64,000 nucleotides of DNA, from assembly GCF_040712075.1 (NCBI RefSeq), contig NZ_JBFCVL010000005.1, forward strand, positions 248,001 through 312,000, given 5' to 3'. Below, piece by piece: positions 17,823 through 47,327 of the stretch (position 1 is the first letter of the stretch; the number at the start of each line of letters is the position of its first letter). Under the pieces are notes generated by a model. The model saw only the letters and a list, made by a program, of their open reading frames with translations. It was not told where the DNA came from and made no database searches. The position numbers were made by a program, and so were the translations under genes. This DNA comes from Fodinicurvata sp. EGI_FJ10296. GTDB lineage: Bacteria; Pseudomonadota; Alphaproteobacteria; DSM-16000; Inquilinaceae.

Positions 17823-17954
17823 ACGGAATCCCCCGCTAAGTGGGGCGCACGGTCCGCTGATGTTGGCCGTCCGGTTTTCCGTATTCCCGCCCATCGCTGA
17901 CACGGGCCCGAACAAGGGCCGGATAGCGGCCGGAATACCAAAAGGACCATCGGG

Positions 17955-32422: not shown

Positions 32423-32457
32423 CCCGCATTTCTCACCGGCGAGGGGCCGCGGCATTG

Positions 32458-32562: not shown

Positions 32563-32683
32563 TGGTCGATAAAGGCCATCTCAGCCTCCTCCGTCCATGT
32601 CACGTTATCCGAATGAATAACGGGTTACCCCTATCGGACAATCCAATAGTATTCCTAACGAAATACCAATGCGGGGTTTCGTC

Positions 32684-33448
32684 TCAAATTCCAGCGATCT
32701 GACCTTCGATCTCCCTGTCGGCCGCATCCGATCCGGGGCCAGCCAAAACCATGGCGCTCCAGCGTCTGGCGATCATTCGGCCAACATCCATCGAGGCCGC
32801 CAAACGCCCGTCCAGATCGTTGCGGAGTCGCCGCGCATGGGCCCTGTTGTCGTCACCGCCAATGCCGTCCAGATGTTCGATCCAGCCGCCAACGATCGTC
32901 GGCGTGACTTCCGGGTGGAACTGCAGTCCCCAGACGGCGGACCCGATCCGGAATGCCTGATGAGGACAGTCAGGCGACGAGACCAGTTCCACCGAACCCG
33001 GAGGGACATCGAATCGATCGAAATGCATTTCCATTGCGGCCAATGGCTCGATCCCCGAAAGCAGTGGGTCATCCTCACAATCCGGCGTCGGTTCAAGGCG
33101 AGTGACGCCGACCTCCGTGCAGGCATCGCGATGAACAACACCGCCGAATGCTCGCGCCAATATCTGTCCACCGAGACAAATACCCAGAATCGGCACGTTT
33201 TTCCAGTGCCCACATCTGAGAAGTGCGATAATTCCTGAAATTCCCGGATAGGCGGTGTCGTCGAGGGCGGACATCGCGCCGCCGAGGACGACGATCCCGG
33301 CAAAACCCGAGACGTTTTCGGGTACCGAGTCGGCATCCTCCATCGGATAGCGGATATCAAGGCCGATACCCTGCTCTCGAAACACCGGCTCCAGAACCCC
33401 GAGAGGAGAAAGCGGATCGTTCTGCAGCACAAGAATGGTATGGGTCAT
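32684..33448 (-). CDS. Class I glutamine amidotransferase-like protein
   Basis: 254 residues from the ATG at 33448 (MTHTILVLQNDPLSPLG). The GATase triad is visible: nucleophile Cys in ILGICLGGQILARAFGG, and the His-Glu pair in WGLQFHPEVTPTI. The oxyanion-region IVVLGGAMSA also fits. It has no synthetase domain, as in GMP-synthase-like amidotransferases (GuaA homologs) that hydrolyse gamma-glutamyl amides. The substrate is unknown. Divergent from the MATE transporter gene, with a 60-base spacer. Confidence 0.9.
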   Translation of the reverse strand: MTHTILVLQNDPLSPLGVLEPVFREQGIGLDIRYPMEDADSVPENVSGFAGIVVLGGAMSALDDTAYPGISGIIALLRCGHWKNVPILGICLGGQILARAFGGVVHRDACTEVGVTRLEPTPDCEDDPLLSGIEPLAAMEMHFDRFDVPPGSVELVSSPDCPHQAFRIGSAVWGLQFHPEVTPTIVGGWIEHLDGIGGDDNRAHARRLRNDLDGRLAASMDVGRMIARRWSAMVLAGPGSDAADREIEGQIAGI

Positions 33449-33508
33449 GGGCGACACGAATAGCGCCGATGCCGACGCGCCCGCAAGTCCCACATCAATG
33501 ACGGCACA

Positions 33509-34915
33509 ATGACACCTCAATCACTGCCGCGCCCCCCGACCGGAACCGACGGATACTGGCATCGGCGGGTCTGGGCGCTGGCATTCCCGATCATCATCTC
33601 CAATGTCTCGACCCCCCTGCTGGGCATGGTCGATACGGCCGTTGTCGGCCATTTGCCCAGCGCCCACTATCTCGGCGCCGTCGCGATCGGTGCAGTGATC
33701 TTCTCATCGATCTTCTGGCTGTTCGGCTTCCTGCGCATGGGCACCAGCGGCCTGTCCGCGCAGGCCTATGGGGCGGGAGATACAACGGAATCGGCCGCCA
33801 TCCTCGGACGGGCATTGATGACCGCCGTGGTGTTGGGAACCCTGCTCGTCATTCTCAATGCGCCGATCGCAGCAGCCGCGTTCTCATTCTTCGAGACGAC
33901 GCCCGCTGTGGAATCAGCGGCGATCGTCTACTACGACATCCGGCTCTGGGCCGCGCCCGCAACGCTGGTCAATTACGCCCTGCTCGGCTGGTTTCTCGGC
34001 ATGCAAAGGGCCGGACTCGGCCTCGTATTGCAACTTATCCTTAATGTGACGAATATTATACTGGACCTGTTTTTCGTCATCGGACTCGGCTGGACCGTGG
34101 ACGGCGTGGCACTGGCCTCCGTCCTGGCCGAGGGCGTCGCTGCGGTGGTCGGGCTTGCCATCGCCTTTGCAATGATCCGTCGAGGTCGAACGCAATGGAC
34201 ATCGATATGGCAGCGGACGAGGGATTCAGCGGCATTCATCCGGCTCGCCGTGGTCAATCGGGACATATTCCTGCGCACCCTGTGCCTGATCGCCGCGACA
34301 TTGTGGTTTACGCGGCAAAGCGCCCGATTCGGCGAGACGACGCTCGCGGCGACCGCAATCCTTCAGCAACTGCATCTCTTCATGGCTCACGCGCTCGACG
34401 GATTCGCCCACGCTGCACAGGCATTGATCGGCCGCACCGTCGGGGCCCGGCGCCGCCGCGACTTTATTGCAGCCATGCGGGCCTCGACGATCTGGGCGGG
34501 GGTCGCGGCCGCAATTTTCGTCGTGGTTTACGCGGTTGCCGGAAAATCCATCGTCGCCCTTTTGACGAGCCTGCCAGAGGTCCGCGAGACAGCGGCGATC
34601 TATTTGCCTTGGGCGATCATGATGCCGCTTGCGGCGGTGTGGTCGTTCCAGCTCGACGGGATTTTCATCGGGGCAACCTGGACCCGTGCGATGCGCAATT
34701 CGATGGCCGTGTCTCTGGTCGTATTTCTGCTCGCCACCTGGGCCGCGATCCCGGTGCTCGGTGTCCACGGACTCTGGCTGGCGATGGTTCTCTTCGTGCT
34801 CGCGCGGGCAGCCACTCTGGGATCCTTCCTGCCGGCATTGATCCGCTCGATTCCCGACGGCCCCGCCTTACAGCACCCCGATCCATATCCAAACCCGAAT
34901 AGGAGCCAGGCATGA
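33509..34915 (+). CDS. MATE-family efflux transporter, DinF-like
   Basis: 468 residues with about 12 membrane helices in two MatE repeats (about 20-180 and 245-405). The first helix region WALAFPIIISNVSTPLLGMVDTAVVGHL contains the typical P and D residues, and SAHYLGAVAIGAVIF follows. It exports drugs or organic cations in exchange for sodium or protons; the substrate is unknown. The stop codon overlaps the next ATG (ATGA), so it is coupled to the patatin-like gene. Confidence 0.92.
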   Translation: MTPQSLPRPPTGTDGYWHRRVWALAFPIIISNVSTPLLGMVDTAVVGHLPSAHYLGAVAIGAVIFSSIFWLFGFLRMGTSGLSAQAYGAGDTTESAAILGRALMTAVVLGTLLVILNAPIAAAAFSFFETTPAVESAAIVYYDIRLWAAPATLVNYALLGWFLGMQRAGLGLVLQLILNVTNIILDLFFVIGLGWTVDGVALASVLAEGVAAVVGLAIAFAMIRRGRTQWTSIWQRTRDSAAFIRLAVVNRDIFLRTLCLIAATLWFTRQSARFGETTLAATAILQQLHLFMAHALDGFAHAAQALIGRTVGARRRRDFIAAMRASTIWAGVAAAIFVVVYAVAGKSIVALLTSLPEVRETAAIYLPWAIMMPLAAVWSFQLDGIFIGATWTRAMRNSMAVSLVVFLLATWAAIPVLGVHGLWLAMVLFVLARAATLGSFLPALIRSIPDGPALQHPDPYPNPNRSQA

Positions 34916-35871
34916 CAGCACCAGTTATCGGATTGGCACTTGGCGGCGGCGTCGCGCGGGGTTGGGCGCATATCGGTGTTCTAAGGGCGCTGGAAGAAGC
35001 GGGAATTCGCCCGGACATCGTCGCAGGGACCTCGATCGGCGCCGTGGTTGGTGGCTGTTACACCGCCGGCAAGCTCGATCCGCTGGAAGAGTGGGCACGC
35101 CGACTCAATCGCTTGCGCATGATCGGCTATATGGACTTCAAGGTTCGTCAGCCTGGCCTGATCGGCGGCAAGCGGCTTGCACGCGAACTGCGGGCCAATC
35201 TCGGCGACCTCACGATCGGCTCTCTGGACCGGCCGTTCATTTCCGTGGCAACCGATATCAACACCGGCCACGAAGTATGGCTGCGCGAGGGGCGGCTGGT
35301 CGAGGCGGTAAGAGCATCCTATGCCCTGCCCGGCATTTTTCCGCCGCTGATGGTCAATGGCCGATCGCTGGTCGACGGCGCGTTGGTGAACCCGGTCCCG
35401 GTTTCCGTATGTCTTGCCATGGGAGCGACCATGGTCATCGCGGTCAACCTGAACGCCGACCTCGTCGGCCGCGCCCGCGTCCCCGGCACATCGTTTCAGC
35501 GGGCGACCGGCTTCGATGTGATGGACTATCTCAAGAACCGCAACGGCAATGGCGCGGCAAACGGCGACGCGCATTCCAACGGCAACGGCAACAGCCGCTT
35601 CGGGTTTCAGACAGTGCTGAGCAAGATTTTCGGCCGCACTACCGACATGCCCAGCGTGTTCGGTGTCATGACCTCGTCTCTGGGGATCATCCTCGACCGG
35701 CTTACACGGTCACGTCTTGCCGGCGATCCGCCGGACATCCATATTGCCCCACGGCTGGGCCATATCGGGCTGATGGAATTCGACCGGGCCGAAGAGATGA
35801 TCGACCTCGGCTATCAGGCGACGAAGCAGTCGATCCCGGACATCTTCGATGCCCGCCAGCTTCTCGAATAG
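34912..35871 (+). CDS. Patatin-like phospholipase family protein (RssA-like)
   Basis: 319 residues. Patatin fold with the oxyanion loop GLALGGGVARGWAHIGVL, the catalytic Ser in GTSIGAVVGG, and the catalytic Asp in DGALVNPVPV. The N-terminal half matches the RssA/YchK group of bacterial patatins. An Asn/Gly-rich loop (KNRNGNGAANGDAHSNGNGN) interrupts the C-terminal half. No signal peptide, so it acts in the cytoplasm or on the inner membrane. It is coupled to the MATE gene by a four-base overlap and convergent with dusA. Confidence 0.92.
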   Translation: MTAPVIGLALGGGVARGWAHIGVLRALEEAGIRPDIVAGTSIGAVVGGCYTAGKLDPLEEWARRLNRLRMIGYMDFKVRQPGLIGGKRLARELRANLGDLTIGSLDRPFISVATDINTGHEVWLREGRLVEAVRASYALPGIFPPLMVNGRSLVDGALVNPVPVSVCLAMGATMVIAVNLNADLVGRARVPGTSFQRATGFDVMDYLKNRNGNGAANGDAHSNGNGNSRFGFQTVLSKIFGRTTDMPSVFGVMTSSLGIILDRLTRSRLAGDPPDIHIAPRLGHIGLMEFDRAEEMIDLGYQATKQSIPDIFDARQLLE

Positions 35872-35889
35872 ACCAACTTCCGAACCGAA

Positions 35890-36888
35890 TTAAGCCGCCC
35901 TGTCCATCACGATGCCTTCCTGCGCCTGGGCAAACAGATCCGCCGGATCACCGGTATGGACGCGCGCACCTTCCGACAGCACACGGCGCCAATGCCGGGC
36001 ACCGGGCTGGCCCTGGAACAGCCCCAGCATGTGCCGCGTGACGGCGTGCAACGGCACGCCGGCCGCCACCTGCGCCCGGCAGTAGTCGACCATGGAGTCG
36101 ACGATCTCCGTCCGTGGCGCGACCGGTTTGGCCAGACCGAAGATCTCTTTATCCACGGCGGCCAGAAGATACGGCGACTGATAGGCCGCCCGGCCCAGCA
36201 TGACGCCGTCGACCCGCTCAAGCGCCGCCTGACTGTCGGCGATCGTGGTCAGCCCGCCATTCAGAACCACCGTCAGCTCCGGATAGTCGGACTTGAGCTG
36301 GAAGACCCGTTCGTAATCGAGCGGCGGGACCTCGCGGTTCTCCTTGGGGCTGAGACCATTCAGCCACGCTTTCCGGGCATGGACGATAAAGGTATCGCAG
36401 CCGGCGCCGGCAACGATATCGACGAACCGCCTGAGATCGGCATAGCTGTCCTGGTCGTCGATGCCAATGCGCGTCTTGACCGTAACCGGGATGTCGACCG
36501 CCGCGCGCATGGCCGCAACACATGCCGCAACGGTCTCCGGTTCGGCCATCAGGCAGGCACCGAACCGGCCGTTCTGCACGCGGTCACTGGGGCATCCGAC
36601 ATTGATGTTGATCTCGTCATAGCCATAGGCGCCACCAATCTCGGCCGCCGCCGCCATTTCAACGGCGTCCGATCCACCAAGCTGCAATGCGATTGGATTT
36701 TGTGCCGCATCGAACCCGAGCAGACGATCCCGATCCCCGTGAATGACCGCGGCGCTGGTCACCATCTCGGTGTAAAGCAGCGCGCAGCCGGTCAGCGACC
36801 GATGGAACCGACGGCAATGCCGTGTCGTCCAGTCCATCATGGGTGCAATGGAAAACCTCGCGGCCCTGGTGGCAGCGTTCGCCTGCAT
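35890..36888 (-). CDS. dusA: tRNA-dihydrouridine synthase DusA
   Basis: 332-residue FMN-dependent TIM-barrel enzyme that reduces uridines 20/20a in the tRNA D-loop. Signatures: FSIAPMMDWTTRHCRRFHR at the N-terminus, the catalytic Cys in NVGCPSDRVQNGRFGACLM, TVKTRIGIDDQDSY, FIVHARKAWLNGLSPKENRE (characteristic of DusA), and the FMN phosphate-binding NGGLTT and MLGRAAYQSPYL. Length is normal. Confidence 0.96.
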   Translation of the reverse strand: MQANAATRAARFSIAPMMDWTTRHCRRFHRSLTGCALLYTEMVTSAAVIHGDRDRLLGFDAAQNPIALQLGGSDAVEMAAAAEIGGAYGYDEININVGCPSDRVQNGRFGACLMAEPETVAACVAAMRAAVDIPVTVKTRIGIDDQDSYADLRRFVDIVAGAGCDTFIVHARKAWLNGLSPKENREVPPLDYERVFQLKSDYPELTVVLNGGLTTIADSQAALERVDGVMLGRAAYQSPYLLAAVDKEIFGLAKPVAPRTEIVDSMVDYCRAQVAAGVPLHAVTRHMLGLFQGQPGARHWRRVLSEGARVHTGDPADLFAQAQEGIVMDRAA

Positions 36889-37123
36889 TTACCGTACCCT
36901 TCCAACCAGCCATTGATCGTCTTTGATCGCCAGCGACAATATAGGCACTTCACCGCCGCCGTGCCACCCACCCTCGCACACGCAACAGGCCTCGATGGTG
37001 CTCACGTATCGTCGTGGACGGCCTGGCCGTGGACATCCGGCTGGGGTTGATCCATGTCAGGGCCGACTCTGTTCACGCGATATATCATTACCGAACGACT
37101 TGCCGTCATTTCGGAGAATGCCG

Positions 37124-37978
37124 ATGAAAGCCGGTCCGGTTCTGATATCTCGTCACGACTTGCCATCCTCGTCGCTTCTGCCGTTCATCGGCCTTACCTT
37201 CCTCATCACATGGGGGCTGGTTGGTATCTATATTCTCTGGCCCGAAGCAGCCACGGCCCGGTTCGGCGCAATCAGCGGGTCGCATCCCTTTTTCTTCCTC
37301 GCAACCTGGTCGCCCGCAATTGCTGCCTTTGTGGTGGTATTCTTCCATTCCGGCACGGCAGGCGTCCGGGCCTTCCTGTCCCGACTTTTCCTGTGGAAAT
37401 GCTCGGCAGGCTGGGTCGCCTTCATCCTGATCTGCATTCCACTCGTTTTCGTCGCAGGCTCGCTGATAAAGGGCGGTCCGGTTCTGGCGCCGCTGCCGCC
37501 CGAAGGCGTGACCCCGGTTGTGGCGGTGCTGTTCATGATGCTGTTTCTGGGCCCGATCGAGGAGTTCGGCTGGCGCGGCGTCGCCCAACCCCTGCTTCAG
37601 CGGCACATGGCGCCGATCTGGGCGGGGCTGCTGATCGGTGCGACCTGGGGCCTCTGGCACCTGCCGGCATTCGCCCTTGCGGGAACGGTCTTTGCCGACT
37701 GGAACTTCCTGCCGTTTTTCGTCGGCAACGTCGTGCTGGCGGTGCTGGTCACGCCGATCTTCAACCGGGCGCGGGGCAGCCTGCTCTGGCCGATGCTTTT
37801 CCATTGGCAACTCATCAACCCGTTCTGGCCCGACGCCCAGCCGTGGGACACGATCATCCTCGTCGGCGTGGCCGCCATCGTTGTGTGGTGGAACCGTGAC
37901 ACGATGTTCACGCGCAAAGGGGCGGTGACCGAGGCTGTGCCCGCAGAGCGCGCGCTCGCACCCAAAGCTGCGGAGTAG
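37124..37978 (+). CDS. CPBP-family intramembrane metalloprotease
   Basis: 284 residues from the ATG at 37124, which has GGAG 7 bases upstream (an ATG two codons earlier is possible). About seven membrane helices. CPBP/Abi active-site motifs are seen: EE..xR in LGPIEEFGWRGVAQPL, and the His motifs WGLWHLPAF and MLFHWQLINP. This family includes prenyl-protein CAAX processing and bacteriocin-immunity proteases; the substrate here is unknown. It is the first of three plus-strand genes with gaps of only a few bases. Confidence 0.9.
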   Translation: MKAGPVLISRHDLPSSSLLPFIGLTFLITWGLVGIYILWPEAATARFGAISGSHPFFFLATWSPAIAAFVVVFFHSGTAGVRAFLSRLFLWKCSAGWVAFILICIPLVFVAGSLIKGGPVLAPLPPEGVTPVVAVLFMMLFLGPIEEFGWRGVAQPLLQRHMAPIWAGLLIGATWGLWHLPAFALAGTVFADWNFLPFFVGNVVLAVLVTPIFNRARGSLLWPMLFHWQLINPFWPDAQPWDTIILVGVAAIVVWWNRDTMFTRKGAVTEAVPAERALAPKAAE

Positions 37979-37982
37979 ACGG

Positions 37983-39152
37983 ATGCGCGGATGTCTCATC
38001 GCGGCCGGTATCGTGGCATCCCTCAGTGCGTTCGCGCCCGCAATGGCGCAGAACGTCGCCGATGTCTCCCTGCGGTTGGAAGCGGCGCTTGAAGACTACC
38101 GCGCCCGGCACGGCTTTCCCGGCGCGACCGCGGCTGTCGCACTGCCCGACGGCAGGATCGCAGCAGCTGCAACCGGCCTTGCCGACGTCGAATCAGGGCG
38201 GCCGATGATGCCCGACACCCCCATGCTGGCTGCGAGCATCGGCAAGAGTTTCGTCGCGGCAACGGTGCTGGCGCTGGAGAGCGAGGGCCGCCTGTCCCGA
38301 GCGGACCTGCTGGCCGATCATCTGGGCGACCGGCCGTGGTTCGGCGATCTGCCCAACGCGGAAACCATGACCATCGGCCACTTGCTGCACCACAGTGCGG
38401 GCCTGCCGGACCACGTCTATCTGCCCGCGTTCCAGGCCGCCTGGGCGCAGACGGCGGCCGGTGATGGCGCGATCAGCCCCGATGATCTCGTCGGTTTCGT
38501 AACGGGGATGGCGCCGCTGTTCGAGGCCGGCACCGCCTGGGCCTATACAGACACGGGGTACGTCCTTCTGGGACTGGTGATCGAGGAGGTGACGGGTCAG
38601 CCCTGGCATGAGGTCGTGAACGCGCGTTTCCTCAGCCCTCTCGCGTTGGCCGGCACCTTCCCTTCGGACCGCCGCGACCTGGCGGGTCTCGCGGTGGGCT
38701 ACATTGCGCCCGACAATCCCTTCGGCCTGCCGGAGCGGACGGCAGACGCCGAAGGCCGGCTGCTCTGGAATCCGGCCGTGGAGGGGGCCGGCGGCGGACT
38801 GGCCTCGACCTCGCGCGACCTTGCACGCTGGGGGCACGCCCTGTTCGGCGGCACGGCGATGGCGGCGCCCTACCTCGACCGGTTGCTCGACGGGGTGCCG
38901 GTGGCCCCCGACACCCCCGGCGTCCTCTATGGCGCGGGCGTCGCCATCTACGCCGAAACGCCGCGTGGGCCCGTTTACGGCCATGGCGGCTGGATCCCCG
39001 CCTATGTGTCGAGCCTGCGCCACTATGCCGACCATGGCGTGACTGTCGCATTCCAGATCAATACCGACGTGGGCTTCCTTGACGATTCCAGCGATCTGGT
39101 TCCCGCTCTGGAGGCGGTGCTCGCGGATCTGGCGCTTGAAGCTGCACAATGA
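37983..39152 (+). CDS. Beta-lactamase class C-fold serine hydrolase, exported
   Basis: 389 residues. Signal peptide MRGCLIAAGIVASLSAFAPAMAQ. Penicillin-recognition motifs are present in modified form: SxxK in AASIGKSFVAA, Y-x-N replaced by YTDTGYVLLG, and HGG in VYGHGGWIPAY. Such proteins are D-Ala-D-Ala peptidases, esterases or D-aminopeptidases; which one is unclear. It starts four bases after the CPBP gene and overlaps the next gene by four bases. Confidence 0.92.
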   Translation: MRGCLIAAGIVASLSAFAPAMAQNVADVSLRLEAALEDYRARHGFPGATAAVALPDGRIAAAATGLADVESGRPMMPDTPMLAASIGKSFVAATVLALESEGRLSRADLLADHLGDRPWFGDLPNAETMTIGHLLHHSAGLPDHVYLPAFQAAWAQTAAGDGAISPDDLVGFVTGMAPLFEAGTAWAYTDTGYVLLGLVIEEVTGQPWHEVVNARFLSPLALAGTFPSDRRDLAGLAVGYIAPDNPFGLPERTADAEGRLLWNPAVEGAGGGLASTSRDLARWGHALFGGTAMAAPYLDRLLDGVPVAPDTPGVLYGAGVAIYAETPRGPVYGHGGWIPAYVSSLRHYADHGVTVAFQINTDVGFLDDSSDLVPALEAVLADLALEAAQ

Positions 39153-40546
39153 TCGCATCGACCGTCGGGCGGCTGATGTTGGCGGCGCTGCTCACGCTCG
39201 CGCCCGGACTGTCCCCCTTGCGGGCAGATACCCTGCCGCTGGAAGACCGTCTGGCAGAGACAATCCCGGCGCGCATGGCGCTGGACGACGTACCAGGCGT
39301 GGTGGTCGTGCTGATCGAGCGCGGCGCGGCGGTCTGGACGGCGGCCTTCGGCTTCTCCGATCCGGAAACCGACCGGCCCATGACCGAAGACGCGCTGTTC
39401 CGGGTCGAGTCGATATCGAAACCCGTGACCGCCTGGGGCGCCATGCGGCTGGCCGAGACCGGACGGTTCGACCTCGACGCCCCCGTCTCGGACTGCCTGA
39501 CCCGCTGGCAACCGCCCGCAGGAACGCCGCTCATTACCGGGCGGCAACTTCTCAGCCACAGCGCAGGTGTTGGTCTTGGCGACTATGCCGCACGCTATGC
39601 GCCCGATGCGCCACGACCGCGGTTACCGACGCATCTGGCGGAAGATTTCGCCATGATCGGCGCGCCGGGGGCGCAATTCGCCTATTCCGATACCGGCTAT
39701 AACCTGCTGGAACTGGCGATCGAGGACTGCACCGAAGAAGATTTTTCCGCCTTGATGGGGCGTGAGATCCTCGTCCCGCTCGGGATGGCGCGTGCGAGTT
39801 TCGACTGGTCCGGTGCCGAAATGCCGGTCGGACACGACCTGCACGGCCAGCCAGTGGCGCCATACCTCTATCCGGGACGCGGATCGGGCGGGCTGTTTGC
39901 CACCGCCGCCGACATTGCACGCTTCGCCGTCGCAGCTATGGCGGGCGCCGATCAGGACGTGCTGTCGCCGGAAGGCATCGCCGCGCTGCATCGCCCCGGC
40001 GTGCCGGTCGGCGGGTTGTTCAGCGTCGCCGCCGAGGGCTACGGGCTTGGGCATTTCACCGAAGTCCTCTCGGATGGGCGAGCGGCGGTCTGGCATGGCG
40101 GACAGGGCTATGGCTGGATGAGCCACCTTCACATGGTCCCGGAAACCGGCGATGGCATCGTGATTCTGTCGAACAGCCAGCGGGCCTGGCCGCTTTTCGC
40201 CGCGATTCTCCGGGACTGGTCGGAAAGCCTCGGCGTCGAACAGGTGGGCATGGCGCGTGTGCTTTGGGCGGAAACGGCGGCACGGGCAACCATCGCGTTG
40301 CTGATTGCAGGTGCGGTGCTTGCGCTTTGGCTGGCGTTCCGGGGCCGGCCGCGCCGCCACGTCACCAGGATCGGCGTCGGCGGGATCGCGGCCGCTCTCA
40401 TGCTCTGGCCACTCTGGGCAGCCGCACAGGACTACCTGTTCCTGTTCTCGATCCTGCCCGGCCTCTGGCCCTGGCTCGGGGTGGCGTCGGCGCTGTGTGG
40501 CATCGGACTCACCGCCATCGCGATCGGACCGGAGCGGCGCACATGA
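39149..40546 (+). CDS. Beta-lactamase class C-fold serine hydrolase with C-terminal membrane domain
   Basis: 465 residues. Signal peptide at the N-terminus (LMLAALLTLAPGLSPLRA), then the hydrolase domain: VESISKPVTAWGAM (SxxK), AYSDTGYNLLELAIE, and VWHGGQGYGWMS. After about residue 370 there are three hydrophobic helices (ATIALLIAGAVLALWLAF, GIAAALMLWPLWAAA and the last segment), so the enzyme is tethered to the inner membrane facing the periplasm. It differs from the preceding gene, with which it shares only fold-level similarity. Convergent with the M23-like gene. Confidence 0.91.
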   Translation: MIASTVGRLMLAALLTLAPGLSPLRADTLPLEDRLAETIPARMALDDVPGVVVVLIERGAAVWTAAFGFSDPETDRPMTEDALFRVESISKPVTAWGAMRLAETGRFDLDAPVSDCLTRWQPPAGTPLITGRQLLSHSAGVGLGDYAARYAPDAPRPRLPTHLAEDFAMIGAPGAQFAYSDTGYNLLELAIEDCTEEDFSALMGREILVPLGMARASFDWSGAEMPVGHDLHGQPVAPYLYPGRGSGGLFATAADIARFAVAAMAGADQDVLSPEGIAALHRPGVPVGGLFSVAAEGYGLGHFTEVLSDGRAAVWHGGQGYGWMSHLHMVPETGDGIVILSNSQRAWPLFAAILRDWSESLGVEQVGMARVLWAETAARATIALLIAGAVLALWLAFRGRPRRHVTRIGVGGIAAALMLWPLWAAAQDYLFLFSILPGLWPWLGVASALCGIGLTAIAIGPERRT

Positions 40547-40564
40547 CCCGGACCGCCGCCTGCC

Positions 40565-41527
40565 TCACCCATCGGACCCGACGAGGTGGTCGCCGCGCAC
40601 GAGGAATCGCCCATCGATGCGCAAGCCAAGCGGCTCGCCCGAGATCGGCGGAGCGCCCGCTTCGGCGGGGCGCTGGGCATGGATGTGCAGATGCGGCTCG
40701 GTGCTGGCGCCGGAATTGCCGACCTCGCCAATCCGGTCGCCCACGGCCAGCTGGTCGCCTGGCACGACCGTGACGCTGCCGTGGCGCATATGGGCGAAAA
40801 CGATCTCGGCCGCGCCGCAGCGCATGATGACATGGTTGCCAAGCCGGTTCACCGCATCCTCGTTCGGCACCTCGAAATCCGGCATCCGGCCCTCGGCCGC
40901 CGCCACAGTGCCGTCGCAGGGCGCACGAAGCTCCGCGCCGAAGATCGCGTAGGCCCCGGGATCGGCGGGCCGCCAGCCACGGGCGCGCAGGCCCCAGGGT
41001 CCAAGGCCGAAGAAATCGACCGCGTAGGACTGCCCGCGCCACGGCAGAAAACGGTCGACGCCGGCATCCAGTGTCCGCATGTGCCCGTTGACCAACGTGT
41101 TGGACCCGCCATGGCCGACGAGATAGTGGCCCGGGCCAAAGGGGTTGGCGATATCGACGACCTCCACCGGTGGCAGACTTTGGCCCGCCATCGCCCGCAC
41201 GCCATACCACCCGCCAACGCCAATCAGCACGAGCGACAGGGCGAGACCCGACCACCCCCACAGCCCTGAAGGCAGCAGAGGCAGGCCGGTCACTCCCTTG
41301 CGCAATGGCCAGACCAGCACCGCCACCAGCCAAAGCCCGCCAAAGACCCACGGCAACCACCAGACCGGCACCGCCCATTGCGCCACGCGCGCCAATGCGA
41401 ACAGGAAGACCCCCGTGCCCACCGCCTGCAGGGCGAAACCGCTCAGGCTTCCGGCTGGCAGCAGCGCAAGCCAGAGAAGCAGTGCCAAAGGCAGCAAGAC
41501 CTGAATGGCAAGGACGGTGGCGGTCAC
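40565..41527 (-). CDS. Membrane-anchored M23 (LytM)-like peptidase
   Basis: 320 residues. Four hydrophobic helices occupy about residues 1-110, followed by a periplasmic LytM-type domain. The second zinc motif is intact: EPHLHIHAQ, with VIMRCGAAEIVFAHMRHGSV and GDRIGEVGNSGAST before it. At the first zinc motif the sequence reads RGQSYAVDFFG: the Asp is present but the His four residues before it is Ser, so the metal site may be altered or inactive. Expected ligand is peptidoglycan cross-peptides. It overlaps the DUF6544-like gene by four bases (ATGA) and converges with the hydrolase genes. Confidence 0.87.
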   Translation of the reverse strand: MTATVLAIQVLLPLALLLWLALLPAGSLSGFALQAVGTGVFLFALARVAQWAVPVWWLPWVFGGLWLVAVLVWPLRKGVTGLPLLPSGLWGWSGLALSLVLIGVGGWYGVRAMAGQSLPPVEVVDIANPFGPGHYLVGHGGSNTLVNGHMRTLDAGVDRFLPWRGQSYAVDFFGLGPWGLRARGWRPADPGAYAIFGAELRAPCDGTVAAAEGRMPDFEVPNEDAVNRLGNHVIMRCGAAEIVFAHMRHGSVTVVPGDQLAVGDRIGEVGNSGASTEPHLHIHAQRPAEAGAPPISGEPLGLRIDGRFLVRGDHLVGSDG

Positions 41528-42363
41528 GGCGTCGCCCCCGGAAACCGGATCTCCGTCACGTCGGCGAGGAAGAATGGAAAATAGTCGTCGGTCCCGAACA
41601 TGTTGCCGGCCTCCACGCGGAACGGCAGGTGATAGCCATCCACCTCGCGAAAATCTGACATGAGGGCACCGAAGGGCTGCAACCGGTGCACCTTGTCGGG
41701 GTTGGCGTTGCTCCAGCGCTGGAACGAGGCAATGACCGGCCTTCCCTCGCTATCGACGGTCACATCGACCGCCTGGCTCAATTCGCCCTGCCGGACGGTT
41801 ACGCGCGCGGTGTCATCGCCCACCGCCGACCATATTACACCCGGTCCCGGCAGCAGGGCCGCCGGCGTCCAGATCGCGGCCTCGGCAACGTAGCGACCGA
41901 AGGCCGATCGCGAATGATCCGGATCACCGCCGAGCCGGGCGACCGGGATCAGGCCGAAGATGCGGAACCGTGTCCATGATCCGGAGTCAGACCCCGAGAC
42001 CGGCATCCCGCCGCGCGTGCGCATGGCCCAGACGAAACCCTCGGGCGCGGCGAGAATCTGGCGCGCTTCCATCGGCTGATAGGCGGGGTTGTCTTTGGTG
42101 CCAAGGCTGAACTGGCCGCTCATGTCGATCTCGGCTACCGGCAGAAGCGGCGTTCCGGGCTCGATCATGAAGCTGAAATACCGGCGCGCAGGCTCAGGCA
42201 GGTCCGCGACCAGATCATGCGAGAAGCGTGGCGGAGCCTCCGGCTGAAGGGCTGCCAGACGCTGCCATTCCGCCCGGTCGGCACGCTGGTCCCACACGCG
42301 AAGGGCAACCAGCGCCAGGATGGCGAACAGAAACAGGAGAGCAAGGGCGATGATGAACTTCAT
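41524..42363 (-). CDS. DUF6544-like membrane-anchored protein
   Basis: 279 residues. One N-terminal membrane helix (MKFIIALALLFLFAILALVAL). The rest looks like a beta-rich extracytoplasmic domain with RYFSFMIEPGTPLLPVAEIDMSG, FVWAMRTRGGMPVSGSDSG and ARVTVRQGELSQAVDVTVDS. I connect it to the DUF6544 group from its overall pattern; biochemical function is unknown. It is translationally coupled to the M23-like gene, which implies joint work in the envelope. Confidence 0.8.
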   Translation of the reverse strand: MKFIIALALLFLFAILALVALRVWDQRADRAEWQRLAALQPEAPPRFSHDLVADLPEPARRYFSFMIEPGTPLLPVAEIDMSGQFSLGTKDNPAYQPMEARQILAAPEGFVWAMRTRGGMPVSGSDSGSWTRFRIFGLIPVARLGGDPDHSRSAFGRYVAEAAIWTPAALLPGPGVIWSAVGDDTARVTVRQGELSQAVDVTVDSEGRPVIASFQRWSNANPDKVHRLQPFGALMSDFREVDGYHLPFRVEAGNMFGTDDYFPFFLADVTEIRFPGATP

Positions 42364-42543
42364 GATCCCGACAAAGGAGGCTGTGGGCGATCAATTGAAA
42401 CCCTTTTCGCTGCCCGACGCGATGACCTGAATCAAAAGTTGGCAGTGGATTGAAATCGTCGCGTGCGCGACCGTCGCACCCGTAAGGTCGGCCATGGTGC
42501 TCACCAGGAGCGGTGTGTCACCCGGTGGCGCCATGGTCGAACG

Positions 42544-42573
42544 GGAGCGTCAGCAGCCCGGTTCGGACGCTCC
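42544..42573 (-). terminator. Hairpin directly after the FadL-like gene
   Basis: Perfect 8-base stem GGAGCGTC/GACGCTCC with a 14-base loop, abutting the stop codon. No T-run follows on the minus strand, so it may be a Rho-linked 3' end or an mRNA-stabilising stem rather than an intrinsic terminator. Confidence 0.45.
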
Positions 42574-43890
42574 TCAGAACCGATAGCGCAAGCCGGCGGC
42601 GACGATATGGACATCGGAGTCGATGCTTGCCTGAATGTTACTGGCGGCTGCACCGTCCAAAAGTGAACGCTGGAGATCGACATCCTCATCGGAAATATCG
42701 ATATAGGTATAGGCCAGATCGGTGGTCAGATCCTCGGTGACGTCAAAGGAAAGCCCGGCCGACAGCCAGGTTCGGTCGCCATCGGGGGTGCGCGAACTGC
42801 GGAAGCCGTCGCGAGTAGGCGTGGTGTCGTATTGGGCGCCACCGCGAACCGTCAACCGCTCGGTCGCGTCGTACTGGGCGCCGATAGAGATAGAATACGA
42901 GTCGCGATAATTCTGCGGCGTCACCCGACTCAGCGCAGCCCTATCCGCTTCGACGCGGATTTCATCGAACCGCGACCATCCGTAGTAGTTGTACTCTGCC
43001 ATCAGGGTGAGACGGTCGGTCGCTTCATGGGCAATGCCGACGGCGACGATATCGGGAAGATCCAGCCCGGCGCTGCCATCAGAATCCTGAGTAACGGCTG
43101 CTGAATCGACGGTGACGGTACCGTCCAGATCGTGCGACATGGCAGACCGATAATGGACACCGATTCTCGTTCCGGCAATTGGCTCGACGATCGCCCCGAC
43201 ATTGAACCCGATCGATGTCGTTTCGCCCTCCACCGTCACCAGGGCGTCCGGGCCGGGCACCGGACCGGGCAACGCGGTCGCCGCCGCCTGCGTCAGCTTG
43301 GCCTCGGCGTGCTGCACGTCCAGCCCCGCGCCGATGGCGAAATAGTCATTCACCCGCCACGCTACGGTCGGCGCGACATTGATGGTCTTCAGCGATGTCT
43401 CGATGCTGTCGTACCGGCCGAACCAATCTTCATCGTATTCGTTGGAGAGGCCGAACGGCGCACTCAATCCGATCCCGACCCAGATATCGCCGCTCTCTGT
43501 CACGGGAATGGCGCCGTACAGATTAGGCACCAGACTGGGCTCATAGGGATTGCCGCCGTCACCGCCGACCGGCCACCCGGGCGGCTGGGCCGTTCCGGTG
43601 TCGGTCATCGATGTTTGCGGAACCAGCAGATGACCGTTGGCCTGCACTTCCGCGCGATCGAGATAGGTCATGCCGGCGGGATTGAAGAAGATCGTGCTGG
43701 CATCCTCGGCCATCGCGGATTCGCCGGCGAAAGCGCGGCCGAGCCCCGTCACGCCTTGTTCCTTGATATAAAATCCGGCCCCGACGGCTGGCGTCGGCGC
43801 CGTCTGAACGACCGCCGTCGCTGCGGCGCCGACGGCCGACATGAGAAGCATGTGCCGGTGGCTTCGGCGAAAACCGTGTCTCGGATTCAT
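42574..43890 (-). CDS. FadL/OmpP1/TodX-type outer membrane transport protein
   Basis: 438 residues. After a signal peptide (SAVGAAATAVVQTAPTPAVGA) the mature protein begins GFYIKEQGVTGLGRAFAGESAMAEDASTIFFNPAGM, the FadL N-terminal hatch pattern. NVAPTVAWRVNDYFAIGAGL and repeated amphipathic strands follow, ending in the outer-membrane C-terminal Phe (VAAGLRYRF). It transports hydrophobic compounds such as long-chain fatty acids or aromatics across the outer membrane. A pair of palindromic sites at 43988-44013 lies upstream. Confidence 0.93.
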   Translation of the reverse strand: MNPRHGFRRSHRHMLLMSAVGAAATAVVQTAPTPAVGAGFYIKEQGVTGLGRAFAGESAMAEDASTIFFNPAGMTYLDRAEVQANGHLLVPQTSMTDTGTAQPPGWPVGGDGGNPYEPSLVPNLYGAIPVTESGDIWVGIGLSAPFGLSNEYDEDWFGRYDSIETSLKTINVAPTVAWRVNDYFAIGAGLDVQHAEAKLTQAAATALPGPVPGPDALVTVEGETTSIGFNVGAIVEPIAGTRIGVHYRSAMSHDLDGTVTVDSAAVTQDSDGSAGLDLPDIVAVGIAHEATDRLTLMAEYNYYGWSRFDEIRVEADRAALSRVTPQNYRDSYSISIGAQYDATERLTVRGGAQYDTTPTRDGFRSSRTPDGDRTWLSAGLSFDVTEDLTTDLAYTYIDISDEDVDLQRSLLDGAAASNIQASIDSDVHIVAAGLRYRF

Positions 43891-43987
43891 GGCGTAACCG
43901 GACTCCCATCCTGAAGGGCGCTGTTGCGTTGCGCCTTATGCGTGCGAAATGCAGCTTCAGGACGTAGATATCACGGCTTCCGGCTCC

Positions 43988-44013
43988 CGGCAATTGCGAT
44001 CGGCAATTGCGAC
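43988..44013. repeat. Tandem 13-base repeat with two GCAATTGC palindromes
   Basis: CGGCAATTGCGA(T/C) occurs twice in direct tandem. Each copy contains the 8-base palindrome GCAATTGC, spaced 13 bases apart. The site is 98 bases upstream of the fadL-like start and 26 bases from the end of the dnaJ-like gene. The spacing is operator-like, but no regulator is adjacent. Confidence 0.5.
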
Positions 44014-44038
44014 CGGGTTGTGTTTCGGACGATGACGA

Positions 44039-44977
44039 TCAGGCCTGATCGGACGTGGCCTGCTGCCAGTTCTTCACGAATGCCGTCAGTTCAGGATCCT
44101 TTTCCGCCGGCAGCGCGATCATTACGCGCGCATAGTGATCGCCGCCGTCGATGCCCTTGCCCTTCAGGCGCATACGGGTCCCACTGCTCGTATTGGGCTT
44201 GACCGACACCGATACCGGACCGTGAACGGTCTGAGCTGTCACTCGCCCTCCCAGCACGGCCTCACGCAGACCGACCTTGAGATCGGCATGAATATCCTTG
44301 CCGTGGCGTTCGAACCGGGAATCAGGCTGGACATGGATCTCGACCAGCGCATCGCCGGCCGGGCCACCGGCACGTCCCTGTTCTCCCTGCCCGCGCAAAC
44401 GCAGCGTCTGCCCGTCGTCCACCCCTTCGGGAATGGTGACGGTAATTGTGCGGCCGTCGATCAACTTGATCGGTCGTTTGCCGCCAACGGCTGCCTGCAC
44501 GAATGGGACGGTCAGGGTATAGGCGACATCTCGACCCCGCGCCCGTCGGGTCTGGCCACCGAAACCGGAGCCGCCAAAACCCTGGCCGGTCTGTCGGCCG
44601 TCGCCGCCCATGCTGCGAAAGAGGTCGGAGAAGATGTCGTCCGCATCGGCGTGACCCTGGCCGGTGCTGCGCCATTCCCAACGGGTACCGCCACCGGGTC
44701 CGCCAGCCCCTGCACCAGCACCTGCACCTGGCCAACCCTGCCGCATCACAGGCTCACCATCGGCACCAATCATCCCCGCGTCGTACTGCTCGCGCTTCTC
44801 GGCGTCACTCAAGATCGCATAGGCAGCGCCGACCTTCTTGAACATCTCCTCGGCTTTGGCGTCGTTCGGATTGACGTCCGGATGATAGCGCTTGGCGAGC
44901 TTGCGATAAGCCTTGCGGATATCGTCATCCGTCGCCGACCGGGTCAGACCCAAAACATTGTAAAGTTCGTCTTTCAT
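44039..44977 (-). CDS. DnaJ-like co-chaperone without zinc finger (CbpA type)
   Basis: About 312 residues from the ATG at 44977 (MKDELYNVLGLTRSATDDDIRKAYRKLAKRYHPDVNPND): J domain with HPD. A Gly/Phe-rich segment follows (about 80-145), then the C-terminal client-binding domain without the CxxCxGxG zinc repeats (IKLIDGRTITVTIPEGVDDGQTLRLRGQG, DALVEIHVQPDSRFERHGKDI). This makes it a class B/CbpA-like protein that stimulates DnaK ATPase. No dnaK is nearby. Confidence 0.93.
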   Translation of the reverse strand: MKDELYNVLGLTRSATDDDIRKAYRKLAKRYHPDVNPNDAKAEEMFKKVGAAYAILSDAEKREQYDAGMIGADGEPVMRQGWPGAGAGAGAGGPGGGTRWEWRSTGQGHADADDIFSDLFRSMGGDGRQTGQGFGGSGFGGQTRRARGRDVAYTLTVPFVQAAVGGKRPIKLIDGRTITVTIPEGVDDGQTLRLRGQGEQGRAGGPAGDALVEIHVQPDSRFERHGKDIHADLKVGLREAVLGGRVTAQTVHGPVSVSVKPNTSSGTRMRLKGKGIDGGDHYARVMIALPAEKDPELTAFVKNWQQATSDQA

Positions 44978-45096
44978 CGCTTGGCACAAATCCTGATAAG
45001 CAAATCCTGATCAGCGGCGCTCCGCCAATCCCGTAAGCCGTTTCCAGCCAGGGCGGCGGCCGGCGCCAATATCAATACATATAGATCGTCAATCGA

Positions 45097-45110
45097 TTGA
45101 TCGGGATCAA
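45097..45110 (+). promoter_or_regulatory. Perfect FNR/FnrL (Anr) box upstream of hemN
   Basis: TTGATCGGGATCAA matches the TTGAT-N4-ATCAA consensus exactly. It lies about 45 bases before the preferred hemN ATG, so the site centred at 45103.5 would place transcription near 45145 if it works at -41.5. Oxygen-dependent control of hemN by an FNR-type activator is well established in related bacteria. Confidence 0.9.
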
Positions 45111-45154
45111 TGCCGCGCGGCGCTTGCGGCCCAAAAATCGGCCGGACCACAAAA

Positions 45155-46642
45155 ATGAGCGCCATGATGAAACATCAACGGATCGACAATCCCGGATCGT
45201 TCCGGCCGGAACCTTGCCGGCCACCGGCCGCCCAGTCCGAAACCGTCAGGACCGGGGCGGGCACGACTGCCGACGCTATCATATCCAGAATGGCCGAGGA
45301 ACGTCTTCCACGATATACAAGCTATCCCACCGCCCCGGCCTTCGGTTCGGGGAACGGTCCGGAAGCCTGGGCAGCCGACCACGCAGATTGGCTGGCGGCC
45401 TTGCCGATTGACCGGCCGGTATCGCTCTATCTGCATGTCCCCTATTGCCGTTCCATGTGCCGGTATTGCGGTTGTACGACCAAGATAACACGCCGGGACG
45501 ATCCGATTGATGCCTACGCCGCCGTCCTGCAGCGCGAGATCGACCTGGTGGCGGATCGCATGCCGGACGCCATGAAAGCCGGGCACATTCATTGGGGCGG
45601 CGGCACACCCGGCATTCTCGGGACAGAGCGGATGAAGGCCATCAGGCGGCGATTGGCCGACCGCTTCACACTCGATCCGGCCGCCGAATGCGCCATCGAA
45701 CTCGACCCCCGACACATGGCATCGGTGCCGCCGCGCGATCTCGCCGCGATGGGCGTCAACCGCGTCAGCTTTGGCATCCAGACCCTTGACGCGCGCGTCC
45801 AGGCAGCGATCGGCCGCATCCAGCCATTTGAACAGGTGGCAGCGGCTGTGGCGAGCGTGCGCGATGTCGGCATCCGGCGCATCAGCTTCGATCTCATCTA
45901 TGGTCTGCCTTATCAGACAGTGGAGTCCGCCGCGCAGACGGTATGGACGCTCCTCGCCTTGTCGCCCGACCGGATCAGCATTTTCGGGTACGCCCACATT
46001 CCCTGGGCCAAGCCGCATCAACGGCTGATACCGGACGAAACGCTGCCCGATGCGCATGATCGCGCCGCGCAATTCACTGCCATGGCGGATGTTCTGGCTG
46101 ATGCTGGCTATGTTGCCATCGGCATCGATCACTTCGCCCGGCCTGACGACAGTATGGCCATCGCCCATCGCGACGGTACGCTGCGGCGGAACTTCCAGGG
46201 CTACACAACGGATCCGTGCGATACGATCCTCGGATTCGGCGCGTCCGCCATCAGCACACTGCGCCAGGGATACACCGGCAACGATACGTCAATTGCAGCC
46301 TATTCCCGCTCCATACACGACGGACGTCTCGCCACCAATCGTGGCTATGAACTGACGCGGGAAGACCGCCTCAGGGGAGATGCGATAAACGCCCTCATGT
46401 GCACGTCATCGGTTTCGATCGACGACGTTGCCCGGCGGCATCCCGGTTTGCGGGACCAGATTCAGCGGATCTTCGACGATGCCGCAAGCTCGCTCGAACA
46501 TCTGGGAAATGCCGGATTGGTCGAATGGGACGGCAATCGTCTGTCCATAGCCCGTGAGGCTCGGCTGCTGGTCCGATCCGTTGCGGCGGCCTTTGACGAA
46601 TATCTGGCGAAGACAGGCGAAAAATATTCAAAGGCGATCTAG
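45155..46642 (+). CDS. hemN: Oxygen-independent coproporphyrinogen III oxidase HemN
   Basis: About 495 residues from the ATG at 45155; the upstream FNR box rules out the longer frame from 45110, whose start overlaps the box. Radical-SAM enzyme that converts coproporphyrinogen III to protoporphyrinogen IX without O2. Seen: PRYTSYPTAPAF, the cluster motif HVPYCRSMCRYCGC (CxxxCxxC, plus a further Cys), HWGGGTP, ISFDLIYGLPYQT, GIDHFARPDD, FQGYTTDP and GFGASAIS. The C-terminus KYSKAI aligns with the family end. The gene is followed closely by a convergent scaffold gene. Confidence 0.96.
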   Translation: MSAMMKHQRIDNPGSFRPEPCRPPAAQSETVRTGAGTTADAIISRMAEERLPRYTSYPTAPAFGSGNGPEAWAADHADWLAALPIDRPVSLYLHVPYCRSMCRYCGCTTKITRRDDPIDAYAAVLQREIDLVADRMPDAMKAGHIHWGGGTPGILGTERMKAIRRRLADRFTLDPAAECAIELDPRHMASVPPRDLAAMGVNRVSFGIQTLDARVQAAIGRIQPFEQVAAAVASVRDVGIRRISFDLIYGLPYQTVESAAQTVWTLLALSPDRISIFGYAHIPWAKPHQRLIPDETLPDAHDRAAQFTAMADVLADAGYVAIGIDHFARPDDSMAIAHRDGTLRRNFQGYTTDPCDTILGFGASAISTLRQGYTGNDTSIAAYSRSIHDGRLATNRGYELTREDRLRGDAINALMCTSSVSIDDVARRHPGLRDQIQRIFDDAASSLEHLGNAGLVEWDGNRLSIAREARLLVRSVAAAFDEYLAKTGEKYSKAI

Positions 46643-46646
46643 GGGG

Positions 46647-47156
46647 TCATCCGGATTGGTCGGGCTGATCCGGTCTGCCTTCGATCGCCTTGTCCGATCT
46701 TTCGATCGCCTCAACCACGGCATCGAACGGCAGCATGACCGAACCGTGCCGGGAGCGAAGGTCGCGCGCCGGCAGCAGCAATTCGAGATCCTGCCAGATC
46801 CCGCCGGGAAGGCTCGCCTCTGGCGAGGTCAGCATTGACTGAACGGCATCGCGGATCTGGATGGCCTCGCTGACGGAACGTCCCGGAAGCACCGAGGCAA
46901 GGATCGAAGTACCGGCCTGCCCCAGCGCGCAGGCCCGGACGGCAAAGCCGATTTCAGTAATGATGTCGCCGTCACGATTGAGATCGAGGGTGATCGTGCT
47001 GCCGCATACCGGACTACGGCGTTTCACCGTTACCTGAGGATCGCTCAAGCGGGCGTCGTTCCTGACCGATCGACCATGGGCCGAGAGCCGTTCGGTGTAG
47101 ATCTCAAGCCATTCGGCATCGCCGGATTCCAACTGCCCCATTATGCGTTGATCCAT
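46647..47156 (-). CDS. NifU-N/IscU-like scaffold protein, third Cys missing
   Basis: About 169 residues from the ATG at 47156 (MDQRIMGQLESGDAEWLEIY). Same fold and motif order as the cox-linked scaffold: SPVCGSTITLDL, RACALGQAGTSIL and RSRHGSVMLPFDAVVEA. Compared with its paralog (SRHNCVLLPFDAL) the third position is Gly-Ser rather than Cys, and the D after the first Cys is S. Only two Cys remain of the classical three, so it may be a carrier or have another role. This variant is a known alphaproteobacterial group; its function has not been established that I know of. It is convergent with hemN, with stops almost touching. Confidence 0.84.
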   Translation of the reverse strand: MDQRIMGQLESGDAEWLEIYTERLSAHGRSVRNDARLSDPQVTVKRRSPVCGSTITLDLNRDGDIITEIGFAVRACALGQAGTSILASVLPGRSVSEAIQIRDAVQSMLTSPEASLPGGIWQDLELLLPARDLRSRHGSVMLPFDAVVEAIERSDKAIEGRPDQPDQSG

Positions 47157-47327
47157 ATTCCGCTGCCAAAGCGAACCGCTACCGGCAGCAATTATCCTGC
47201 GAAACGCAAAAAAGCTCTGCCCACCCACCTTGCGATAGCTGACGCAGAGCCAGCGGGCGGCCGGACCAGCGCGCGAAACGCGCGTTGATCCGGCCGCTCC
47301 GAAGGTCACGAACCTGAAAGGGTCCGC

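Follow-up and report, generated by a model that had tools for sequence, protein, structure and literature searches.

The five genes at positions 37124-42363 of a 64,000-nucleotide stretch of the Fodinicurvata sp. EGI_FJ10296 genome (the whole stretch is called the window hereafter) are one copy of an island of hydrolase and hydrolase-like genes, which very probably behaves as a mobile, modular unit and whose two outer genes often have a common promoter box of the Crp/Fnr type. The explanation that best accounts for the whole, with a probability of roughly 0.35, is that this horizontally moving island encodes inner-membrane and periplasmic hydrolases that are switched by low oxygen or nitric oxide and act on peptides. 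The component families are known; no published description of their combination or of the box, and no paper on DUF6544/DUF6920, was found in the open-licence literature. The observation made in the initial annotation of the window is real, and the island is larger than first noted, since it can exceed five genes; the regulatory signature linking both ends was also missed there.

Gene content, order and promoter boxes

The initial annotation described a compact set made of a CPBP protease, two beta-lactamase-fold enzymes, an M23-like and a DUF6544-like protein, and this description holds: all five open reading frames are intact and placed as described, and Pfam agrees with each name, with all scores above the curated cut-offs. 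Three genes are on the plus strand: CPBP (37124-37978), of the Rce1-like intramembrane endopeptidase family (PF02517, 46.7 bits, cut-off 22.4), with EExxxR and WxxWH motifs and FHWQLINPFWPDAQPWD close to the C-terminus; BLA1 (37983-39152), a probably exported S12 serine hydrolase (PF00144, 180.4 bits) with SIGK, YTD and HGG motifs; and BLA2 (39149-40546), a second S12 serine hydrolase (PF00144, 198.5 bits). On the minus strand, M23 (40565-41527) is an M23-type peptidase (PF01551, 44.8 bits, cut-off 28.7), and DUF6544/DUF6920 (41524-42363; PF20181, 146.1 bits) has a predicted LolA/LolB-like half barrel. CPBP and BLA1 are 4 bp apart, BLA1/BLA2 and M23/DUF6544 overlap by 4 bp, and BLA2 and M23 converge tail to tail, with 3' ends separated by 18 bp.

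Regarding the membrane-spanning parts, a 19-residue Kyte-Doolittle hydropathy profile, to be taken as a rough guide, gave five transmembrane-like segments for CPBP, four for M23, all N-terminal, and one each at the N-termini of DUF6544 and BLA1; BLA2 has one N-terminal and three C-terminal peaks (379-397, 408-426, 442-460), a layout similar to that of ClbP. BLA1 has no C-terminal peak, and both S12 proteins have one doubtful internal peak.

As for composition, the block was claimed to be richer in G+C than its flanks, and it is: its value of 67.1% exceeds both the mean (62.9%) and the maximum (65.2%) of the other 35 five-gene blocks obtained by sliding along the window. The codon comparison suggested alongside gave a less distinct result, because the codon-usage distance of the block is raised and not extreme, being reached by 3 of the 35 other blocks; by itself, codon usage would not flag the island. 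The block is present once in the genome (4.83 Mb; host contig, 517 kb).

A genome scan with M23 gave 161 relatives, of which the best 80 were taken and the 44 closest of these mapped (L032-L074 and L099; M23 itself passed a 45% identity filter in 43 of them). Among these 44 loci, DUF6544 is near M23 in 28, BLA2 in 18, CPBP in 13 and BLA1 in 12, so that M23 and DUF6544 form the commonest pair; all five genes are found in four loci, from Hyphomonas (L033), Lutimaribacter (L040), Roseovarius (L045) and Jannaschia (L068). None of the four partners is found at nine of the 44, some of which are on short contigs, or at the remaining 36, with more distant M23 proteins. In L042 and L069, a cyanobacterial contig and one from Sphingorhabdus, M23 is near a gene whose translation resembles a catalase-peroxidase.

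A further 35 loci, retrieved by means of their CPBP or M23 genes (5 of 40 were repeats and were dropped), brought the total to 79. One consensus order accounts for 563 of 572 gene pairs and one strand for 280 of 283 genes, values that are a description and not a test, as the consensus derives from the same loci that were scored, orientation follows the majority in each locus, and ancestry is shared. For these counts, matches had to reach 45% identity (for CPBP2 and SM13, 40%, with SM13 kept outside the pairs), single-gene loci contribute nothing to the order, and several loci come from one genome in some cases. The full order is DUF6544, BLA3, M23 and CPBP2 on one strand, and ABH1, BLA2, ABH2, AMH, ADH, an Acg-type protein, BLA1 and CPBP on the opposing one; no single locus is complete, and the window copy is the five-gene version.

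The seven additional families are variably present and were named from one protein each: BLA3 is a further S12 protein, ABH1 and ABH2 are alpha/beta hydrolases, ADH is a zinc-type dehydrogenase, CPBP2 is a second Rce1-like protein, and AMH is an amidohydrolase resembling a possible prolidase, a phenylurea hydrolase and arginine carboxypeptidases. The Acg-type protein (C29), present at no fewer than seven loci, is an Acg-family oxidoreductase binding flavin mononucleotide (297.8 bits for the L066 protein, cut-off 199). The copy common to Roseisalinus and Antarctobacter also carries a GyrI-like small-molecule-binding protein.

The box upstream of the outer genes is found in the window as TTGATCCATGTCA (37047-37059, plus strand), 77 bp before the CPBP start codon, and as TTGATTCAGGTCA (42423-42435, minus strand), 72 bp before that of DUF6544. 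Across the loci, the motif TTGAYN4RTCA precedes 30 of 42 CPBP and 20 of 39 DUF6544 genes, for an expectation of 0.10 and 0.06 from mononucleotide shuffles; the corresponding values are 2 of 93 for eight inner gene families and 7 of 291 for flank genes. Regions without a start codon, shorter than 200 bases or duplicated were dropped, which kept 42 of 49 CPBP and 39 of 44 DUF6544 regions, and the test excluded M23 and the Acg-type gene. The flank-gene control weighs most, since the motif was first spotted in the same sequences in which it was later counted; a scrambled-motif control gave a mean of 0.24 over 500 scrambles, but one scramble reached 40 of 81, which makes this control less strong than the shuffles and the flank genes.

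The distance between box and start codon is 65-85 bp in 24 of the 30 CPBP and 17 of the 20 DUF6544 cases, and the bases beyond the box and its next two or three are near random, which indicates a conserved site in diverged DNA. Another 81 matches occur on both strands of the 1.31 Mb of loci, a few of them being island sites missed by the upstream set. The telling feature is the placement upstream of both outer genes rather than the number of matches in the window, where TTGATCCATGTCA also occurs at 26309-26321 on the minus strand, with no gene assigned to it.

FnrL sites listed in PMC4634722 comprise TTGATTCAGGTCAA (Rba. capsulatus dksA), TTGATCCATGTCAA (Rba. sphaeroides uspA) and TTGATCGGGATCAA (dorS); over their first 13 bases, the CPBP box is identical to the uspA site and the DUF6544 box to the dksA site. 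The Fnr palindrome given for Dinoroseobacter is TTGAT-N4-ATCAA (PMC5398030, a study with Dinoroseobacter shibae strains that lack FnrL or single Dnr regulators). An internal comparison is offered by the full Fnr palindrome TTGATCGGGATCAA at 45097-45110, between the divergent dnaJ and hemN genes and about 2.7 kb from the island. Judging from box sequence and placement, control of the island by a Crp/Fnr-type regulator is likely. In another locus (L207), an Fnr-type palindrome (13941-13954) lies upstream of a Crp/Fnr-like regulator gene, with a CPBP/DUF6544 island about 5 kb away; the score of this regulator is below the NCBIfam cut-offs.

Distribution and mobility

A search of the 16 other genomes of the host family with M23, the sole island gene used there, gave no close copy; the best match is partial, limited to the peptidase domain (E 3e-10). 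In the class, M23 is found at 1e-30 in 5 of 385 genomes, host included, and the best other copy has 46% identity. Regarding co-occurrence, 394 Rhodobacteraceae-type genomes, the family of the genome that contains L040 (G397), gave M23 in 10 (E 1e-60), CPBP in 42 and both in 9, against 1.07 expected (Fisher p 7e-9); G397, picked for carrying both genes, is counted among the 9. The two genes are within 30 kb on the same contig in seven of the nine genomes and on separate contigs in two.

The co-occurrence that the initial annotation proposed to check is thus found for M23 and CPBP, and membership of the general core genome, which it had put forward as evidence against a module, is rejected for these two genes, accessory in the sampled family. 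Scattering in relatives, its other counter-argument, is seen in part: nine of the closest and all 36 distant M23 loci are without partners, and two of the nine genomes have the genes on split contigs. The idea of a transferable module itself is supported by the single order found elsewhere, by the accessory nature of M23 and CPBP and by an M23 without a close copy in the host family.

The island is scattered over bacteria of several classes: close copies, with 58-79% identity in M23, are known from Rhodobacterales, from Hyphomonas, Sphingorhabdus, Halomonas, Chromatocurvus and Nodosilinea, and from metagenome bins with other labels. At the DNA level (pieces of at least 120 bases), similarity between window positions 30001-50000 and L032, L033 and L040 is confined to 37161-42306. 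Likewise, two Halomonas loci (L062 and L064) have a 1.8 kb DUF6544-M23 block and no flank in common, and L062 and L099 have one more common piece, of 186 bases, outside this block. The Roseisalinus and Antarctobacter copies have 10.4 kb in common at 99.98%, whereas the hemN stretches of these genomes align in two pieces with 68 and 70% identity; a stretch so similar in two genera could be cross-contamination of one assembly. Between the same genera, 16.8 kb at 97.7% (L253 158-16943 and L256 2715-19501, tail module included) represent a second recent exchange.

This tail module is of phage type (L055 1-4027, L253-L264; prophage-like or similar to a gene transfer agent), and consists of a tail gene with an Rcc01698-like C-terminus, DUF2793, DUF6127 and an M15 peptidase; the DUF6544 gene of Roseisalinus and Antarctobacter begins about 135 bp past the point at which homology between module copies ends. 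The tail gene has nine matches in the Antarctobacter genome and eight in that of Roseisalinus, some partial, and in L222, a second island copy of Antarctobacter that has decayed, a DUF2793 fragment of 52 residues also adjoins DUF6544. Carriage of the island as phage cargo was rejected, as M23, DUF6544 and CPBP had no close copies in viral contigs, searched with lossy peptide patterns, where one distant M23 was the only match, despite the prophage-like neighbourhood of this one island copy. Other mobile-element genes lie a few kb from the Hyphomonas copy (tyrosine integrase and IS91-type transposase) and at the Antarctobacter copy (DDE transposase).

Pieces of the island are exchanged separately, because the synonymous divergence (dS) between L209 and L211 is 0.24 for CPBP and 1.30 for the neighbouring BLA1. 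In all 22 gene comparisons, the ratio of nonsynonymous to synonymous divergence is 0.09-0.32, pointing to purifying selection; this, together with the gene set, its order, the boxes and the patchy spread with changing flanks, is what can be read directly from the sequences. One copy is decaying, with one internal stop each in M23 and CPBP (G619:C1:763104-765894). In the M23 tree, the window copy is in an unresolved fork with those of Rhodobacterales, Hyphomonas and Aquisalimonas, and the label Rhodobacterales changes eight times; good branch support makes three of these changes necessary, but transfer is not proved by this.

As for plasmids, PLSDB has no copy of M23, CPBP or DUF6544 above 60% identity, and an Acaryochloris plasmid carries a CPBP and BLA1-like pair at 50 and 53%. 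On a Halorientalis plasmid (L236, NZ_CP095488.1 276482-295165), DUF6544 clusters with five CPBP genes, an alpha/beta hydrolase, an esterase and a nitroreductase, and haloarchaeal plasmid M23 proteins align with the island M23 at 26-29% overall. Haloarchaea are not known to have murein and carry this related gene community, so that murein need not be the common substrate.

Protein families, candidate substrates and alternatives

At the level of sequence, the catalytic motifs of the CPBP and S12 enzymes are conserved. EExGWR is present in 49 of 49 CPBP copies; the last-helix motif differs from HxxxN in 43 of the 49, where N is at H+5 and not at H+4, and CPBP2 has HFMIN or HFMVN in seven of seven. 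The structures matched by CPBP are MmRce1 (E 3e-12) and, weakly, S. aureus LyrA/SpdC (6u0o, E 0.0012).

In the S12 sets (26 BLA1, 26 BLA2 and 13 BLA3 sequences), HGG is complete and SxxK is found in 25 BLA1 (one not found), 25 BLA2 (one with T) and all BLA3 proteins. At the third residue of YxN, 25 BLA1 (one not found) and 25 BLA2 proteins (one N) have D, and all 13 BLA3 proteins have N. The closest solved relative of BLA1 is the alkaline D-peptidase 4y7p (E 9.8e-33) and that of BLA2 is Pab87 (2qmi, E 7.6e-28), an archaeal enzyme described as degrading peptides with D-amino acids (PMC2651629); those at the top for BLA3 are IS11, Pab87 and alkaline D-peptidase. BLA1 and BLA2 have the Pfam family and SxxK in common with class C beta-lactamases, and their assignment to this class was rejected, as they score 29.7 and 50.2 bits with the NCBIfam model bla_class_C (NF033085), far below its cut-off of 415.

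In M23, residues H149, D171, H246, H279 and H281 are invariant in 21 aligned sequences; for the HxxxD zinc motif, H149 and D171 are candidate residues, 22 residues apart in the sequence. Its model (pLDDT 91.6) has four helices followed by a LytM-type domain (fold Z 12.3). The DUF6544 model (pLDDT 95.4) has a LolA-superfamily protein as best Foldseek match (E 6.9e-6) and aligns structurally with LolB (Z 10.6) and LolA (Z 10.3), so that the protein is predicted to be a LolA/LolB-like half barrel on a membrane anchor. It differs from LolA and LolB in its 4 to 9% identity (top three structural alignments) and in the transmembrane-like anchor, and its carrier role is putative.

Three known systems are comparable. 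In the mlr cluster, MlrA is of CAAX/CPBP type, MlrB is an S12 enzyme, MlrC a metallopeptidase and MlrD a transporter, and the products open and cut a peptide with D-residues. The island resembles this microcystin cluster in pairing CPBP-type and S12-type enzymes with a metallopeptidase, a likeness of families and not of aligned Mlr sequences; unlike mlr, it has M23 and DUF6544, and no MlrC-type gene or transporter is among its annotated genes. The relation of MlrA to the CAAX type is given as likely (PMC6691742), and MlrB is described as an SxxK enzyme of the penicillin-recognizing family (PMC4810221). The island CPBP has HWQLIN in place of the HAIHN of MlrA (PMC4810221), and Blastomonas 'mlr' homologues are reported as having low similarity (PMC9505733).

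The second system is ClbP, which BLA2 recalls with its S12 domain and, from hydropathy only, three C-terminal segments. ClbP is a D-amino peptidase that cuts an N-acyl-D-Asn motif at the membrane, and enzymes of its type have S or T at ClbP position 188 (PMC9889268); unlike such prodrug-activating peptidases, BLA1 and BLA2 have D (25/26 each) and BLA3 has N (13/13), and no nonribosomal peptide synthetase (NRPS) or polyketide synthase (PKS) gene is among the annotated island genes. The third comprises the D-stereospecific resistance peptidases BogQ and TriF and alkaline D-peptidase, the best solved match of BLA1. These enzymes act alone or beside an antibiotic cluster, unlike the S12 genes of the island, which sit among several hydrolases. 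BogQ is described as an S12 member (PMC9541196).

The initial annotation proposed either cell-wall remodelling or the handling of an imported peptide or antibiotic, and peptide hydrolysis would tentatively be the best fit. In the mechanism that we propose, the host would supply a regulator of the Crp/Fnr family, of FnrL, Dnr or FixK type, that binds the box about 75 bp upstream of each outer gene, and a fall in oxygen or the appearance of nitric oxide would turn on two converging transcripts, from the CPBP and DUF6544 ends. The products would meet at the membrane, where DUF6544 may hold an amphipathic, probably acylated substrate and CPBP may cleave it within or at the membrane, with the S12 enzymes trimming or cutting at D-residues in the periplasm and M23 acting as an endopeptidase. 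The assignment of a peptide substrate is tentative; the best candidates would be acylated or D-residue peptides, such as lipopeptides, peptide antibiotics or debris from the envelopes of neighbouring cells, degraded for protection or feeding, because such a molecule at the membrane would suit a carrier, an intramembrane protease and D-peptidases jointly. Membrane topology, binding and identity of the regulator, trigger and, above all, substrate are what we infer in this scheme.

A more specific version, rather unlikely as a whole, is a mobile, membrane-bound disassembly line for acylated D-residue peptides, undescribed so far and switched through Crp/Fnr by an oxygen fall or a nitric oxide rise. 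In it, a LolA-like carrier would work with an intramembrane protease or a pair of them, with S12 D-peptidases, three at most, and with a membrane M23 and accessory hydrolases; the related gene community of haloarchaea, with their walls without murein, would belong to it.

Several observations weigh against a low-oxygen, peptide-degrading island. Esterases and D-Ala carboxypeptidases are also among the S12 family matches of BLA1 and BLA2, and most of the folds matched by M23 belong to cell-wall peptidases. No importer, transporter, NRPS or PKS is found among the annotated island genes, with not every open reading frame scanned, so that neither feeding nor self-immunity is evident. The strict box is absent upstream of 19 of 39 DUF6544 and 12 of 42 CPBP genes; in Lutimaribacter saemankumensis DSM 28010 (L040) and Roseovarius litoreus DSM 28249 (L045), CPBP is preceded by it or by a near variant and DUF6544 is not. 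The window has five matches (the palindrome counted twice) where 1.5 would be expected, and 3 of 100 shuffles gave as many. At position 14, A is found in 8 of 50 island sites, and the two of the window have T and G, compared with A in 90% of Rba. capsulatus FnrL sites (PMC4634722); unlike the latter, the island box mostly has T or G there, often followed by CG, and its extended form is TTGATCCAGRTCATCG-like. The regulator is perhaps not FnrL for this reason, and its identity as FnrL is uncertain. Low-oxygen control, moreover, is not an obvious match to antibiotic defence.

The main rival, possible if on balance doubtful, is remodelling of the host's own envelope when oxygen falls. The S12 proteins would then be D-Ala carboxypeptidases or endopeptidases of the AmpH kind, M23 a murein endopeptidase, CPBP a protease or a partner of a murein enzyme (compare SagB-SpdC), and DUF6544 would serve lipoproteins or lipid intermediates. 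This agrees with the LytM-type domains matched by M23 (Z about 12), with the weak CPBP match to LyrA/SpdC, with a low-oxygen control suited to a shift in growth state, and with AmpH as one of the best NCBIfam matches of BLA2 (60.9 bits) and BLA3 (78.6 bits), both far under the cut-off of 266. However, M23 and CPBP, present in 10 and 42 of 394 genomes, are mobile and patchily distributed, in contrast to core wall enzymes, and plasmids of murein-free haloarchaea carry a CPBP/DUF6544 cluster and M23 relatives.

The larger copies, with alpha/beta hydrolases, amidohydrolase and zinc-type dehydrogenase, could also be a loose catabolic set (S12 esterases, alpha/beta hydrolases, amidohydrolase, reductase) that scavenges or detoxifies small hydrophobic esters, amides or lactones. 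Esterases among the S12 matches fit this explanation, as does DidK, a CPBP homologue described as an esterase acting on a depsipeptide (PMC10811503); it is unlikely, as it leaves no obvious role for M23 and DUF6544, the pair found most often, and the annotated island genes include no transporter or central-metabolism gene. Less probable still is the absence of any joint function, with single useful genes accumulating at hot spots and their order kept by inheritance: the variable gene content, the nine M23 loci without partners and the unequal dS of CPBP and BLA1 would be expected, but order, strand and outer boxes persist though the flanks differ in the compared pairs. Phage defence or bacteriocin immunity is very improbable, even if the island is mobile, one copy adjoins a prophage-like tail module and CAAX-type hydrolases are reported in bacteriocin loci (PMC10811503), since none of ten island proteins matched PADLOC-DB models at E 0.01, which rejects a known anti-phage system, and M23, DUF6544 and CPBP have no close copies in viral contigs; no search aimed at bacteriocin genes was made.

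Whether the substrate is a foreign peptide, as in the explanation we prefer, or the host's own envelope changes what the island means: in the first case, it would be a mobile, oxygen-dependent route for degrading peptide antibiotics or lipopeptides in marine and saline bacteria, and in the second, a transferable envelope programme. Bacterial CPBP proteins, S12 'serine hydrolases' and DUF6544 are common and mostly without an assigned role, and their joint travel in a fixed order under a common box gives these families a shared context and a testable trigger; for DUF6544, the predicted LolA/LolB fold adds a structural guess.

Genes around the island

The island is flanked on the left by a Dus gene (tRNA-dihydrouridine synthase, 35890-36888, minus strand), and on the right by one for an OmpP1/FadL-type protein (42574-43890, minus strand), both outside it. 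A patatin gene accompanies Dus on the left, and dnaJ and hemN, the latter named from its translation, lie beyond FadL on the right. Dus has a strong match (E < 1e-100) in 16 of 21 genomes searched and the OmpP1/FadL-type gene a match in 5 of 21. No empty site was found in the fetched host-family stretches, where Dus is without an adjoining FadL or hemN, and two attempts through the flank genes of other copies met too few relatives. The patatin-Dus adjacency is preserved in three host-family genomes (G005, G008 and G012), and a search with the hemN product gave related genes in two other genomes.

DnaJ is near DUF6544 in the window and also on a Nostoc plasmid (L239, NZ_CP091915.1), where DUF6544 adjoins a DnaJ-type gene and CbpM. 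Finally, the window contains a thiamine pyrophosphate riboswitch at 17734-17834 on the plus strand (RF00059, 63.7 bits).

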